Origin: Candidatus Spechtbacterales bacterium
GTDB lineage: Bacteria > Patescibacteriota > Minisyncoccia > Spechtbacterales > 2-12-FULL-38-22
NCBI GenBank assembly: GCA_040879145.1
Contig: JBBDKX010000012.1
Coordinates: 1-35,382, forward strand
Direction of reading: 5' to 3'
Length of the DNA stretch: 35,382 bases
In this document: piece after piece, positions 199 through 24,482 of the stretch
How positions within the stretch are numbered: the stretch's first letter is position 1
Layout of the letters: every line of letters starts with the position of its first letter
Notes under the pieces: generated by a model
Databases searched by the model: none
What the model was told of the DNA's origin: nothing
What the model saw: the letters and a program-made list of their open reading frames with translations, nothing else
Translations under genes and position numbers: made by a program

Positions 199-2133
199 TT
201 ATACTATATTAACAGGATCAACCTCAACCTCCCAACTCCCGGCGGCCATTTCTAAGAGTGCGTTGCGGGAATGCAGGTCTTCAACTTCACCATTTTTCTT
301 TTTGGGCCACTTGATGAGTATATACCAAATATATTTACCGGCAACTTTGGGAACAAATGCCGGCGCCGGACCTAGTACTTCACATTTTTCTGCTGCTAAT
401 CCGGACAATTTTTTGCTTTGCAGATTTTTAATTTGTGTTTTTAACTTTTGCGCCATTACTGCAGCTTCTTGTTGGGCTTTTTGAGGGCTTTTATCTTTAA
501 AACTCAGCTTTATTAACTGAGAATAGGGAGGCCAGGAAAATATTTGTCGTTTTTTTAGCTCTTCTTCATAAAAAGGTTCAAATCTTTTAGATACACCATG
601 TTTGAAAACGGACATTTCCGGGTGGTATGTCTGTATTAGGAGTCCTTTTTGGGTCATATGACGGAGTCTCCATATAGATTCAAATATTTTTTCAGCCGAG
701 CGATACTCAGGAAGATAGAGAGCGGCATCAAGCATTAGTGCCACAGAGTAGTCGAGTTTCGGTAGCATGTAATCTTTTAGTGCTATCTGTGTTGCTATAA
801 GGACGTTTGTATCTCCTTTTTTAAATCTGGCAAAGATCTCCTTTTGTTTATCTGTATTTGTCGCAACATCGCTGTCCATGTGTTCTATAGAAAGATGCGG
901 AGCAACCCCTATAGCTTCTTTTAATGCTCTTTGCGTTCCGCCTCCTATCTCTCTTATTTTACTCCCATTGCAGGATGGGCAAATATTTGGCGCTGGTATT
1001 TTTTTTCCGCAATGGTGGCAAATAAGAATATGTGCACCCGCGGATTCATGTAAAACAGTTGGCGCTTCACATTCCGGGCAGTTCACAATATATCCGCAAT
1101 CTCTGCAAATTATCGCTGAAGAGAGTCCTTTTCTTGTGATAAGCATTAATACTTTTTCATTTTTATTTAAATTTTTTAGCATATGTTCAACCTCCTCACT
1201 AAAGATAGACTTGTTATCTTTTTTGATTTCTTCGCGCATATCTATGAGTTTAGCCGGTGAAAGTTCTGATGGTTCTTTTATTAACTGCCATTCCTGATTT
1301 TTTGCTTTGTGATATTTTTCCACAGAAGGCAGTATATCTCCCTCAATAATATCTACGCCATATAAGTCACTTATTATTTCAGCGGTATGTCGTGTGTCAA
1401 ACTTAGGATGCAGATCCCAGGATACGTGCGATGTATTGTTTTCATTTTCAATAATAATTGTTCTTAAGTTTTTAAGCGGTGTAAAAAGAACGGCTCTTGT
1501 GCCAAGTAAATTTTCTATATCGCCCGTGTAAGCATCTCGCCACGTATTACGCCAGCTTACCTGCGACATACCGCTGTTCACTACAGAGAATTTGTTTTTT
1601 TCAAACCTTTTTTCTTCATGTTCCAATTGTAGATACTGAGGCACAATCATAATTGTTCCTTCTTTTTCTAAATATTTTTTATAGTGTTTAGACCTGTCAC
1701 TACCTATCAGCAATATTTTCTTTCCGGTATTTTTCTTATTTCTAGCAGGAGGTTCGGGGAGTTTTTTTAATAAATCCAAAAGCGGTTTGTTGGGCTTTGA
1801 AAAGAATGGCGGAAGCATGCGCTGTAGCATTAAACCAAAAGAGGAAAAATAGTAATCAGCAAGCGTGATTCCAAGTTTTATAAACTCTTCATTAAAAACA
1901 GGATGTGGAGTTAATTCATTTTTTATACCCCGAAGGGTAAAAGGAACTTTTTTTATGAATTGTTTTTGGTCTTTAGCGGAACCTACCTGCACCACAAGCG
2001 CTGCCACTTTCCTGCTCCCCAAAGGAACTTCAACAAGCTGCCCAACAGAAAAAGACTCCGCACTGTAGTAGGCGGGCATTTGAAGGCTTAGTCTGGGTAG
2101 CTTGGTTAAAGGTATAACGTAATATATGTACAT
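199..2133 (-). CDS. priA: PriA-like primosomal protein N' with degenerate helicase motifs
   Basis: Homologue of PriA, which normally reloads the replicative helicase at stalled forks. The N-terminal 3'-DNA-binding region is recognisable (VGQLVEVPLGSRKV). The zinc-binding region is complete, with four CxxC pairs (CRDC, CPEC, CHHC, CPSC). The ATPase core is altered: the Walker A loop reads GSDRSKH (about residue 144), the DEEH box reads ENEN (about 230) inside an otherwise typical GTRAVLFTPLKNL context, and the motif VI GRAGR region reads WRLRHMTQKG. An ATP-driven helicase is therefore unlikely; a structural or DNA-binding role is inferred. About 644 residues against 732 in E. coli. I chose ATG 2133 over 2154 because an extended -10 (TGC TATTAT, complement of 2145-2153) lies between them and would give a 5-nt leader. 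Family assignment is firm; function is uncertain. Confidence 0.88.
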   Translation of the reverse strand: MYIYYVIPLTKLPRLSLQMPAYYSAESFSVGQLVEVPLGSRKVAALVVQVGSAKDQKQFIKKVPFTLRGIKNELTPHPVFNEEFIKLGITLADYYFSSFGLMLQRMLPPFFSKPNKPLLDLLKKLPEPPARNKKNTGKKILLIGSDRSKHYKKYLEKEGTIMIVPQYLQLEHEEKRFEKNKFSVVNSGMSQVSWRNTWRDAYTGDIENLLGTRAVLFTPLKNLRTIIIENENNTSHVSWDLHPKFDTRHTAEIISDLYGVDIIEGDILPSVEKYHKAKNQEWQLIKEPSELSPAKLIDMREEIKKDNKSIFSEEVEHMLKNLNKNEKVLMLITRKGLSSAIICRDCGYIVNCPECEAPTVLHESAGAHILICHHCGKKIPAPNICPSCNGSKIREIGGGTQRALKEAIGVAPHLSIEHMDSDVATNTDKQKEIFARFKKGDTNVLIATQIALKDYMLPKLDYSVALMLDAALYLPEYRSAEKIFESIWRLRHMTQKGLLIQTYHPEMSVFKHGVSKRFEPFYEEELKKRQIFSWPPYSQLIKLSFKDKSPQKAQQEAAVMAQKLKTQIKNLQSKKLSGLAAEKCEVLGPAPAFVPKVAGKYIWYILIKWPKKKNGEVEDLHSRNALLEMAAGSWEVEVDPVNIV

Positions 2134-14869: not shown

Positions 14870-16207
14870 ATGTTAGAAAATATCAAAAAAGCGTATTTAA
14901 TAGGTATAAAAGGTGTAGGCATGACCGCTTTGGCGCAGATTTTACAAAGCAGGGGAGCGGAGGTTTTAGGTTCTGATACAGAAGAGAAATTTTTTACAGA
15001 TGAAGTTTTAAAAAAATTAAATATCCACGTTATTGAAAATTTTTCTCCAAAAAATATTCCCGGCGATGCGGATATTATCATTCGGTCTGTTGCGTACACA
15101 AAAGAAAATAATATTGAAGTTGCTGAAGCCAAAAATAGGGGAGTGCCTGTAATTACATATCCGGAGGCTTTAGCGGAACTTTTTAATAAATCATATGGAA
15201 TTGCGGTTTGCGGTTCGCATGGAAAGAGTACCACGGCGGCAATGCTTGGTTATGTTTTAGAATACGCGGGATATGACCCTACGGTGGTTGTGGGAAGCAG
15301 GGTAAATAAATGGCAAAGCAATGCTCGTGCGGGAGGTTCAAAGTACTTTGTTATTGAGGCGGACGAGTACAAGGAGGCATTTTTGAAATATAAACCAAAA
15401 GTTATTGTTTTAACGAATATTGATTATGACCACCCGGATTATTTTAAAGATGAACATTCCTATCGAAACGCTTTTCAAAAATTTATGTTTGAAAATATAG
15501 AAGCTCAAGTAATAGACGGCAGAGAGGTGGAAAAAAAAGAAGAATTTAACCTAAAACTTATAGGTGAGTACAACCAGAAAAACGCTAATTGCGCGTATCA
15601 AGCTGCGCTAAAAATAGGTGTTGAGCCCCTTCTTGCTAAAAAAGCTATTGAAGAGTTTGATGGGATAGCAAGACGTTTTGAGAGTAAAGGAGAGTACGGC
15701 GGCGCTAAGTTGTATGACGATTACGCGCATCATCCAACCGAAATTAGCGCTTTAATTGAAGGTGTGCGGAAAAGTTATCCGAACAGAAGAATTATAATAC
15801 TTTTTCAGCCGCATACTTATTCAAGAACTGAGAGTCTTTTTGATAATTTTGTGCAATCTTTGAGAAGTGCAGACAAGGTGTATATTTTAAAGACGTATTC
15901 CTCGGCCAGGGAAACTCCTTCGACAGGCTCCGCGCCAAAGGGCGGGCAGGCAGGACAAGACCCTTCGGCAGGCTCCGCGCCAAAGGGCGGGCAGGCAGGA
16001 CAAGACCCTTCGGCAGGCTCAGGACAAGGAGGGGAAGATGTGTCGGGCAAAAAGCTTGCAAAAGAACTTAATGCATCATATTTTGAAAATTACCAAGAGG
16101 CGGCTAAAACAATAAAGAAAGATTTGAGTGACTCTGTTTTGTTTATAACTGTGGGGGCGGGGGATGGCTGGAGAGTTTCGGATATTTTAAATAATGATTC
16201 GCAATAA
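14870..16207 (+). CDS. murC: UDP-N-acetylmuramate--L-alanine ligase
   Basis: Adds L-alanine to UDP-MurNAc with ATP, the first amino acid of the peptidoglycan stem. 445 residues. The N-terminal Rossmann domain starts KKAYLIGIKGVGMTALAQIL. The ATP loop is CGSHGKSTTAAML, followed by VIEADEYKEAFLKYKP, TNIDYDHPDYF and the C-terminal DDYAHHPTEISALI. Residues about 350-387 are a repeat-encoded insert of two 15-residue units (GSAPKGGQAGQDPSA) plus a partial third, placed in a loop of the C-terminal domain; the protein then resumes with KKLAKELNASYF. The start is supported by the leaderless promoter. Mpl-type ligase is less likely given the motifs and the many other mur genes here. Confidence 0.94.
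   Translation: MLENIKKAYLIGIKGVGMTALAQILQSRGAEVLGSDTEEKFFTDEVLKKLNIHVIENFSPKNIPGDADIIIRSVAYTKENNIEVAEAKNRGVPVITYPEALAELFNKSYGIAVCGSHGKSTTAAMLGYVLEYAGYDPTVVVGSRVNKWQSNARAGGSKYFVIEADEYKEAFLKYKPKVIVLTNIDYDHPDYFKDEHSYRNAFQKFMFENIEAQVIDGREVEKKEEFNLKLIGEYNQKNANCAYQAALKIGVEPLLAKKAIEEFDGIARRFESKGEYGGAKLYDDYAHHPTEISALIEGVRKSYPNRRIIILFQPHTYSRTESLFDNFVQSLRSADKVYILKTYSSARETPSTGSAPKGGQAGQDPSAGSAPKGGQAGQDPSAGSGQGGEDVSGKKLAKELNASYFENYQEAAKTIKKDLSDSVLFITVGAGDGWRVSDILNNDSQ
15916..16035. repeat. Tandem 45-bp repeat inside murC
   Basis: Two full units (15916-15960, 15961-16005) differ at two positions, followed by a partial third (16006-16035). The unit contains CTTCGGCAGGCTC and GGGCGGGCAGGCAGGACAAG. As 45 is divisible by three, unit gain or loss keeps murC in frame. 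The reverse strand also stays open here. Confidence 0.9.
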
Positions 16208-22976: not shown

Positions 22977-24482
22977 TTACAGCTTGTTTATGGCTGTGTT
23001 TATACGCTTTAATGCCTCTTCTTTTCCAAGAACCTCTAATATTTCAAACGGACCGGGAGAGGCTTTCTTACCGGAAAGAGCTGCCCTAAGAGGCCAAAGA
23101 ACTTGTCCCCTATCTCCTACCTGCGCCGGGCTGCCAGGCGCGGCAGGCAGGCCCGAGCTTTCCGCGTGTGGCATAATAATGTTTTCAATGTCTTCTTTTG
23201 TCCAGTCACTTTTCTCTATATTTTGTATTATAACACTTAATTCTTTAAGTTCCTTTATCGCTCCCTGTCTGTCTGATTTTTTCCATATCAAAAGTTCGCT
23301 TTCATATTTGGGCTCTTTAAATATAAATTCCAGACCCTCAGTTATATCCGACAATTTTTTTATTCGTTCATGTTCTAAGGTTATAACTTTTTTTAACCAG
23401 TCATAACTTCTTTCTTCTCCATTGGCGGTTATTTTTAAGGTATTTTTTTGGCGTACAAAAAAACCTTCTTTTTCAAGATATGGAACACAAAGTTCTGTTA
23501 ACTCTTCTTTTGAGAGTTTTCTAATATATAAACTGTTCATCCAACTTAATTTTTCTACATCAAAGACAGCCCCTGATTTTTGAATGTCTGCTATGTCAAA
23601 TTCTTGTATAATTTCATTCTTTTCCATTATCTCCTTCTCGTCCTCTTTTGGTCTCCAGCCCAGAAGCGCTAAAAAGTTGAACATGGCTTCCGGAAGATAG
23701 CCCTGTTCTTTGTATTCATATACGGATGTTGCCCCATGTCTTTTGCTTAATTTGCTTTTATCTCCGCCCAAAAGAAGAGGAATGTGGGCATACTTGGGAC
23801 GCTGAAACCCTAATGCCTCCAAAATAAGAATTTGCCTCGGTGTGTTAGATATGTGGTCCTCCCCCCGTAGTATATGAGATATTTTCATTTCATGGTCGTC
23901 TATCACAACAGCAAGGTTGTATAACGGCTCTTTAGTACTTTTTGCTATTGAGAAATCTCCAAAATCAGGCGCGTTAAATTTTACCTCGTTTCGCACAAGG
24001 TCTGTAAATACTATTGATTCTTTAACGTCATTGCGAAAACGTACTATGGAATTATCAGGAATATCTTTTTGTGAAAGTTTTTTGTCTCTGTAGTCGCAAA
24101 CGTGTTTAGGCGCCATTTTGGCTTGCATCTGTTTTTCGCGTTCTTTCTGGAGCTCTTCTTTGGCATGCCAACAGTAAAAGGCTTTTCCTGATTCCAGTAA
24201 TTTTTGTATATATTTTTCGTATACATCCTCTCTTTCGCTTTGTCGGTAAAACTCATCCCACTCAAGTCCGAGCCACTCAAAACCTTTTAAAATATCTTCC
24301 TCCCATTTTTTTTCAGAACGCTCTTTGTCTGTATCTTCAATGCGCACTATAAACTTACCTTTGTAATGTTTTGCGAACAGGTAGTTAAATAGTGCCGTGC
24401 GCGCCGTACCCACATGCAAAGAACCTGTTGGCGAAGGAGCCATGCGTACGCGTATTTCTTTGTTTGATTTATCTTTATCCAT
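22977..24482 (-). CDS. gltX: Glutamyl-tRNA synthetase
   Basis: Class I synthetase of 501 residues that charges tRNA-Glu (and possibly tRNA-Gln, if an amidotransferase is present). HIGH motif in APSPTGSLHVGTART, then IEDTDKERS; KMSKS motif in KLSKRHGATS; the anticodon-binding domain ends FEILEVLGKEEALKRI. Near residue 450 a repeat at about 23117-23156 adds GLPAAPGSPAQVGDR just before the conserved GQVLWPLRAAL segment. It begins 9 bp after murG, so a translation gene sits within a division operon. No discriminating residue for Glu versus Gln charging was analysed. Confidence 0.95.
   Translation of the reverse strand: MDKDKSNKEIRVRMAPSPTGSLHVGTARTALFNYLFAKHYKGKFIVRIEDTDKERSEKKWEEDILKGFEWLGLEWDEFYRQSEREDVYEKYIQKLLESGKAFYCWHAKEELQKEREKQMQAKMAPKHVCDYRDKKLSQKDIPDNSIVRFRNDVKESIVFTDLVRNEVKFNAPDFGDFSIAKSTKEPLYNLAVVIDDHEMKISHILRGEDHISNTPRQILILEALGFQRPKYAHIPLLLGGDKSKLSKRHGATSVYEYKEQGYLPEAMFNFLALLGWRPKEDEKEIMEKNEIIQEFDIADIQKSGAVFDVEKLSWMNSLYIRKLSKEELTELCVPYLEKEGFFVRQKNTLKITANGEERSYDWLKKVITLEHERIKKLSDITEGLEFIFKEPKYESELLIWKKSDRQGAIKELKELSVIIQNIEKSDWTKEDIENIIMPHAESSGLPAAPGSPAQVGDRGQVLWPLRAALSGKKASPGPFEILEVLGKEEALKRINTAINKL
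23117..23156. repeat. Repeat copy inserted in frame in gltX
   Basis: An imperfect hairpin CCTGCGCC / GGCGC-GGCAGG containing the GGCAGGCAGG core also found at 84-93, in the murC tandem and at 32092-32101. It is more GC-rich than the rest of the gene and encodes a Pro/Ala/Gly loop. Confidence 0.7.

Follow-up and report, generated by a model that had tools for sequence, protein, structure and literature searches.

PriA restarts DNA replication that has broken down; what is left for it to do once its helicase motor is gone? The question is raised by a gene on the minus strand of a 35,382-nucleotide stretch of Candidatus Spechtbacterales DNA (GCA_040879145.1, contig JBBDKX010000012.1; 'the window' below is this whole stretch), at positions 199-2133. 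A sequence-only reading had taken it for a PriA homologue in which Walker A, DEEH and the arginine finger are lost from an intact frame, and had proposed that the protein is kept by selection for a non-helicase function.

A PriA protein without helicase motifs

The coding sequence occupies positions 202-2133, with its stop codon at 199-201, and translates into 644 amino acids. The ATG at 2133 matches the equivalent start in relatives; use of an upstream in-frame ATG at 2154 would add seven residues. The protein is recognised as PriA by the curated whole-protein family TIGR00595 (310.7 bits, cut-off 230.35), and the five PDB chains that match its sequence are all PriA. Both the 3'-end-binding domain (3'BD; residues 1-108, positions 1810-2133) and the C-terminal domain (residues 536-640, positions 214-528) are kept, with Pfam matches to PriA_3primeBD (PF17764; 42.1 bits against a cut-off of 22.7, residues 28-108) and PriA_C (PF18074; 49.7 against 26.9, residues 536-640). 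The cysteine-rich zinc region between them (C343-C388, positions 970-1107) scores slightly under the cut-off of Zn_ribbon_PriA (PF18319; 24.7 vs 26) and contains all eight zinc cysteines (C343, C346, C352, C355, C372, C375, C385 and C388), which had, like the DNA-binding N-terminus, been picked out from the sequence alone. The three parts stand in the order expected of a PriA, and neither the Pfam search nor the AlphaFold model revealed an extra domain.

The motif readings made from the sequence alone all agree with an alignment to E. coli MG1655 PriA, our reference for motifs and residue columns throughout. Walker A (motif I) is lost and reads GSDRSKH (residues 144-150, positions 1684-1704), E. 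coli GVTGSGKTE being aligned to IGSDRSK-H, so that no GxxxxGKT is present and R147 occupies the lysine column. The DEEH box (motif II) reads ENEN (residues 229-232, positions 1438-1449; DEEHD aligns to ENENN), which is neither DEEH nor DEAH and includes E231, and motif VI with the arginine finger reads WRLRHMTQKG (residues 488-497, positions 643-672), where QVAGRAGR aligns to RLRHMTQ and no QxxGRxGR is found. Three further changes accompany these: motif III is lost (EGDILPS for E. coli LGSATPA; residues 264-270, positions 1324-1344), motif V is degenerate (IATQIALKDYML; residues 446-457, positions 763-798), being partly lost where E. coli GTQMLAKG aligns to ATQIALKD, and the winged-helix domain (about 106-175 in E. 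coli) is missing, the one feature that the sequence-only reading had overlooked. A loop of lobe 1 just past motif II, SWDLHPKFDTR (residues 238-248, positions 1390-1422), is largely kept according to column counts (for the E. coli protein see PMC10175261). The E. coli PriB-docking residue D438 is retained as D345; the 3'BD residue D17 is replaced by alanine and is S or T across most of the phylum, which counts against the platform reading given below. Judged from its sequence, the gene is a PriA by descent whose catalytic motifs are lost, which is the sequence part of the definition of a pseudohelicase.

The columns of E. coli P101 and K230 lie 129 residues apart in E. coli, 39 in the window protein and a median of 56 in motif-intact Patescibacteria. 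As PriA proteins of this phylum that keep their motifs are thus also short at the winged helix, this domain was probably lost before the motor; although E. coli has it, PriA proteins in general can do without it.

The AlphaFold model, built with an alignment of 44 rows from the window and the fetched loci, has a mean pLDDT of 88.1 and a pTM of 0.88, and predicts that the complete PriA fold is kept. Its nine top fold matches in the PDB are all PriA, with TM scores of 0.65-0.78, the best being 8fak_H (E. coli PriA with fork and PriB) and 6dcr_A (E. coli PriA with the winged helix deleted). In the model the P-loop is a four-residue turn, preceded by a strand (139-143) and followed by a helix (148-155).

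Two other genes of the window have unusual stretches. murC (14870-16207) contains an in-frame 45-bp tandem repeat at 15917-16020, with 2.3 copies of the unit CCTTCGGCAGGCTCCGCGCCAAAGGGCGGGCAGGCAGGACAAGAC, which is far richer in G+C than its surroundings. In gltX (22977-24482, minus strand), a G+C-rich in-frame stretch at about 23050-23165 reads in part SSGLPAAPGSPAQVGDRGQVLWPLRAALSGKKASPG and looks like a repeat-type insertion of the murC kind near the C-terminus of the protein.

Spread and origins of the motif loss

The genome of the window (847 kb in 39 contigs, listed as 100% complete) contains a single PriA, and no normal copy stands beside the one described here. Weaker TIGR00595 matches in it cover only ~110-190 profile positions, in helicase-core stretches of frames of 657-706 aa; we infer that these are other superfamily-2 helicases (RecG/Mfd/UvrB type), and they were rejected as a hidden second PriA.

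We extracted and aligned 192 PriA frames from Patescibacteria and counted proteins of at least 540 residues, calling them dead or live according to whether the helicase motifs are absent or kept. The loss is lineage-wide: in the class of the window organism, 104 of 112 full-length proteins (45 families) are dead and eight (4 families) are live. We take this class to be Parcubacteria-type Patescibacteria, the name borne by the closest named loci. The PriA proteins fetched from outside the class comprise 50 intact (34 families) and 20 dead ones (13 families), from a sample drawn from the top and the bottom of the score list, the counts of which are not a prevalence. The TIGR00595 score list itself is bimodal, with about 117 proteins of the phylum above 430 bits, nearly all matched from the Walker A start of the profile, and a lower mode below 335 bits, where matches mostly begin around profile position 13. 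GxxxxGK[ST] and GRxxR are each kept in none of the 124 dead proteins, whereas GRxxR is present in 58 of 59 live ones, the lone exception having an ambiguous residue there, and the losses of motifs I and VI are perfectly linked across the dead and live proteins. The same joint loss in 124 full-length homologues means that the motif readings in the window protein are not due to chance. Elsewhere in the dead proteins, 114 of 124 have the full set of eight zinc cysteines, the W333 column holds a proline in 119 of 124 (57 of 59 in live proteins) and the D438 column, used for PriB docking in E. coli, is D in 87 of 124.

To estimate the number of origins, we used a tree of 104 proteins with the motif columns left out, obtained by a quick search and with long branches; its deeper joins are tentative, as is the placement of the four live class families within or beside the dead ones. 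The dead and live states require four changes on this tree, at least three of them forced by starred branches, and the window protein belongs to a starred clade that comprises 42 proteins, all dead. One dead protein, L165 (genome G455, family f147), belongs to a family in which two members, L185 and L190, are intact, L190 being its starred sister; its loss looks recent and independent, and the family is well suited to sister-protein comparisons. Another, L054 (f37), is dead and placed beside the live clade of the class, again at a starred branch. If the motifs cannot be regained, there were more losses than the tree counts.

Family f45 has its PriA divided between two genes on different contigs, alike in three genomes. 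One half (310-319 aa) contains the 3'BD and lobe 1, the other (338-350 aa) the zinc region, lobe 2 and the C-terminal domain; they lie at L287 1078-2007 and L123 1477-2490 in G059, L288 1296-2252 and L124 338-1360 in G119, and L289 210-1148 and L118 1307-2356 in G178. A fourth member, G166 (L079), has an unsplit PriA. In genus g70, PriA consists of two overlapping frames of 284 and 382 aa (G071: L106 1149-2000 and 1951-3096), broken in the motif III region at an identical position in two species (G071, and G133 with L103) that are 97% identical; this could reflect a frameshift, or a gene fission in which translation of the two frames is coupled.

Two oddities were seen in single genomes. G021 has a second, truncated PriA N-terminus (L290 1137-1934), a 266-aa frame with ~110 residues resembling the 3'BD, about 2 kb upstream of its full-length dead PriA. 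In G141, the dead PriA (L117) has one in-frame stop in the 3'BD, with two congeners intact; this may be a sequencing error or a genuine pseudogene.

PriA was detected in 124 of 238 class genomes with TIGR00595 (E 1e-25) and in 130 of 238 with a class-specific 13-row profile. With the latter it was undetectable in 108 of 238 (~45%), including G002 from the family of the window organism, which indicates that the role of PriA is dispensable on evolutionary time scales.

Proposed function and partners

Studies of other PriA proteins suggest what a motor-less protein could still do. PriA from D. radiodurans binds forks and DnaB although it has neither ATPase nor helicase activity (PMC4504706). In E. 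coli, PriA-PriB restart can do without ATPase activity in vivo, and DnaB loading in vitro has been assayed with the ATPase-dead K230A protein (PMC10175261). Upon fork binding, the zinc region swings and closes a pore around the lagging-strand single-stranded DNA, exposing partner sites (PMC10175261, PMC13377028). By analogy with the E. coli and D. radiodurans data, the function retained in the window protein would be primosome assembly or loading of DnaB.

In our judgement the gene quite probably encodes a PriA pseudohelicase, a platform for fork recognition and replisome reloading that neither hydrolyses ATP nor unwinds DNA. In a first step, an abandoned fork or D-loop would be recognised by the 3'BD, the junction loop of lobe 1 and the lobe scaffold. 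Closure around the lagging-strand single-stranded DNA would follow, by way of the zinc region, lobe 2 and the C-terminal domain, and the tail of SSB may dock on the protein at this stage. The resulting complex would recruit DnaB, probably together with DciA. Such a protein should act only on forks with a lagging arm that is already single-stranded, and unwinding of the lagging strand would be left to another helicase or not be done at all.

The genome of the window encodes DnaB (533 bits), SSB (163 bits, with the tail DDEIDIKDIPF) and DciA (33 bits), the last located immediately downstream of dnaA and dnaN. Among 28 relatives DciA was found in only eight, which counts against a part for it in loading. 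Family searches of this genome detected neither PriC nor DnaD, and the sole IstB/DnaC-type match is DnaA itself, leaving DnaC/DnaI undetected. A DnaT candidate (E 0.011, 15.5 bits where the cut-off is 25) contains an internal stop and was dismissed as a chance match, so that the search for a DnaT- or PriC-like protein, proposed along with the sequence-only reading, yielded no credible one. It is because these factors were not detected that we name DciA as the probable co-recruiter.

The same absences also count against a loader, as PriC, DnaT and DnaC are the E. coli-type partners through which an ATPase-dead PriA is of use, and together with the missing DnaD they would fit a protein that was repurposed to bind forks or D-loops with no role in DnaB loading, e.g. 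as a fork protector or a recombination or DNA-uptake factor. The loss of motor and winged helix also speaks for such a binder, as does the division of PriA into two genes in two lineages. However, the window protein has gained no detectable domain for a new task, the zinc and C-terminal surfaces that carry the loading-partner sites in E. coli are among its best-kept parts, and the D. radiodurans pseudohelicase still binds DnaB (PMC4504706). We therefore consider repurposing unlikely.

Selection on the dead proteins

Conservation was compared by the information content per domain in 104 dead class proteins and 59 live proteins. The 3'BD is as informative in the dead as in the live proteins (1.81 bits each, ratio 1.00), and the C-terminal domain (1.58 vs 1.71 bits, ratio 0.93) and the zinc region (1.90 vs 2.16 bits, ratio 0.88) are close to it, whereas helicase lobes 1 (1.50 vs 2.38 bits, ratio 0.63) and 2 (1.80 vs 2.53 bits, ratio 0.71) show the largest drop, so that relaxation is concentrated in the motor. 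Residues for which conservation is confined to the live proteins are, among others, G224, S228, G229, K230, T231, D320, E321, T358, Q540, K544, G545, Q580, G583, R584 and R587, and by their alignment positions they include catalytic ones.

Within genera, dead pairs have dN/dS values (NG86) between 0.055 and 0.28, most of them 0.06-0.2 and none near 1, and live pairs have values between 0.03 and 0.13, with single ratios being rough as many dS values are near saturation; the dead pairs are all from relatives, as the window protein has no congener in the set. Judged by these ratios, purifying selection acts on the dead PriA family throughout the class. The earlier proposal that the protein is kept for a non-helicase function is thereby well supported, together with the intact frames and the domain-specific conservation. 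Most simply, 'selection for' such a function would mean that an existing non-helicase role was retained once the motor had become dispensable.

These data bear directly on whether the protein is a non-functional relic that genome reduction is about to remove. That about 45% of class genomes, even one of the same family, are without detectable PriA, that some homologues are very diverged and that the MAG G141 carries an in-frame stop would all suit a decaying gene. Yet that MAG is one of more than 120 otherwise intact frames, and the decay in relatives that had been named as the mark of a relic is not seen; dead pairs have low dN/dS, the 3'BD is as conserved as in live helicases with eight cysteines in most dead proteins, and the predicted structure is well folded. 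Frame integrity, dN/dS and domain-specific conservation largely refute the relic, and we give it very little credence.

As to the erased nucleotide site, that it was rewired and the protein is still an ATPase seems highly implausible: 74 of 124 dead proteins carry arginine in the column of the Walker A lysine and 91 of 124 a glutamate at the motif II column of E322 (R147 and E231 in the window protein), which could be read in its favour, but the phosphate loop is cut to a short turn in the model, 13 of 124 homologues have little or nothing of it left, K230R alone abolishes the ATPase of E. coli PriA (cited in PMC4504706) and none of the 124 retains the arginine finger. Coupling between the two residues is weak (58 proteins with both, 16 with the arginine only, 33 with the glutamate only and 17 with neither). 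Nor do we claim a new motif, D/E-R-h-x-x-Y, in place of Walker A; a loose version occurs in 55 of 124 proteins, and in other subclades it is absent or the loop is deleted.

Comparison with known systems

Returning to the motor-less platform as our preferred reading, we can extend it to the class, albeit tentatively and short of favouring the extension. Most members that keep PriA might restart replication without fork remodelling, with a motor-less PriA of several independent origins, in places split, serving as a scaffold that needs no ATP and passes DnaB to the fork via DciA or directly; such a primosome would be simpler than any studied. A possible minimal restart primosome of PriA, DnaB, DciA and SSB in genomes of ~1 Mb would then be at hand. 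Furthermore, a class without the motor but with the fork-binding body, beside live sisters, offers a natural experiment to separate the motor and platform roles of PriA.

The window protein shares the fold, 3'BD, zinc region and C-terminal domain with E. coli PriA (8fak, 6dcr), which has intact motifs I-VI and a winged helix, while the window protein has neither. Actinobacterial PriA is described in HAMAP/UniProt notes as having no detectable helicase motifs and is reported to be helicase-inactive. The window protein is not specifically of this type, as it scores 67 bits against PRK14873, the NCBIfam group of actinobacterial PriA, and 365 bits against PRK05580.

The PriA pseudohelicase is already known as a kind, having been proven in D. 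radiodurans (PMC4504706). The same study argued that the near-universal conservation of helicase motifs in PriA shows the motor to be advantageous, though E. coli manages without it. No report of motor loss in PriA of Patescibacteria, CPR or Parcubacteria was found in the mostly open-access literature searched. As in the window protein, Walker A and B are lost in Deinococcus-Thermus PriA, an arginine stands at the Walker A lysine and the DNA-binding role is kept, as is predicted for the window protein. However, Deinococcus-Thermus PriA matches motifs I and II poorly, with R in place of K, whereas in the window protein the P-loop is replaced outright and motifs III and VI and the winged helix are missing as well; unlike in that group, the motor loss spans a class and several other lineages of Patescibacteria. 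What is new here in comparison with the known pseudohelicase is thus the class-wide scale, the near-total erasure of the ATP site, the natural absence of the winged helix, the repeated origin and the fission in two lineages.
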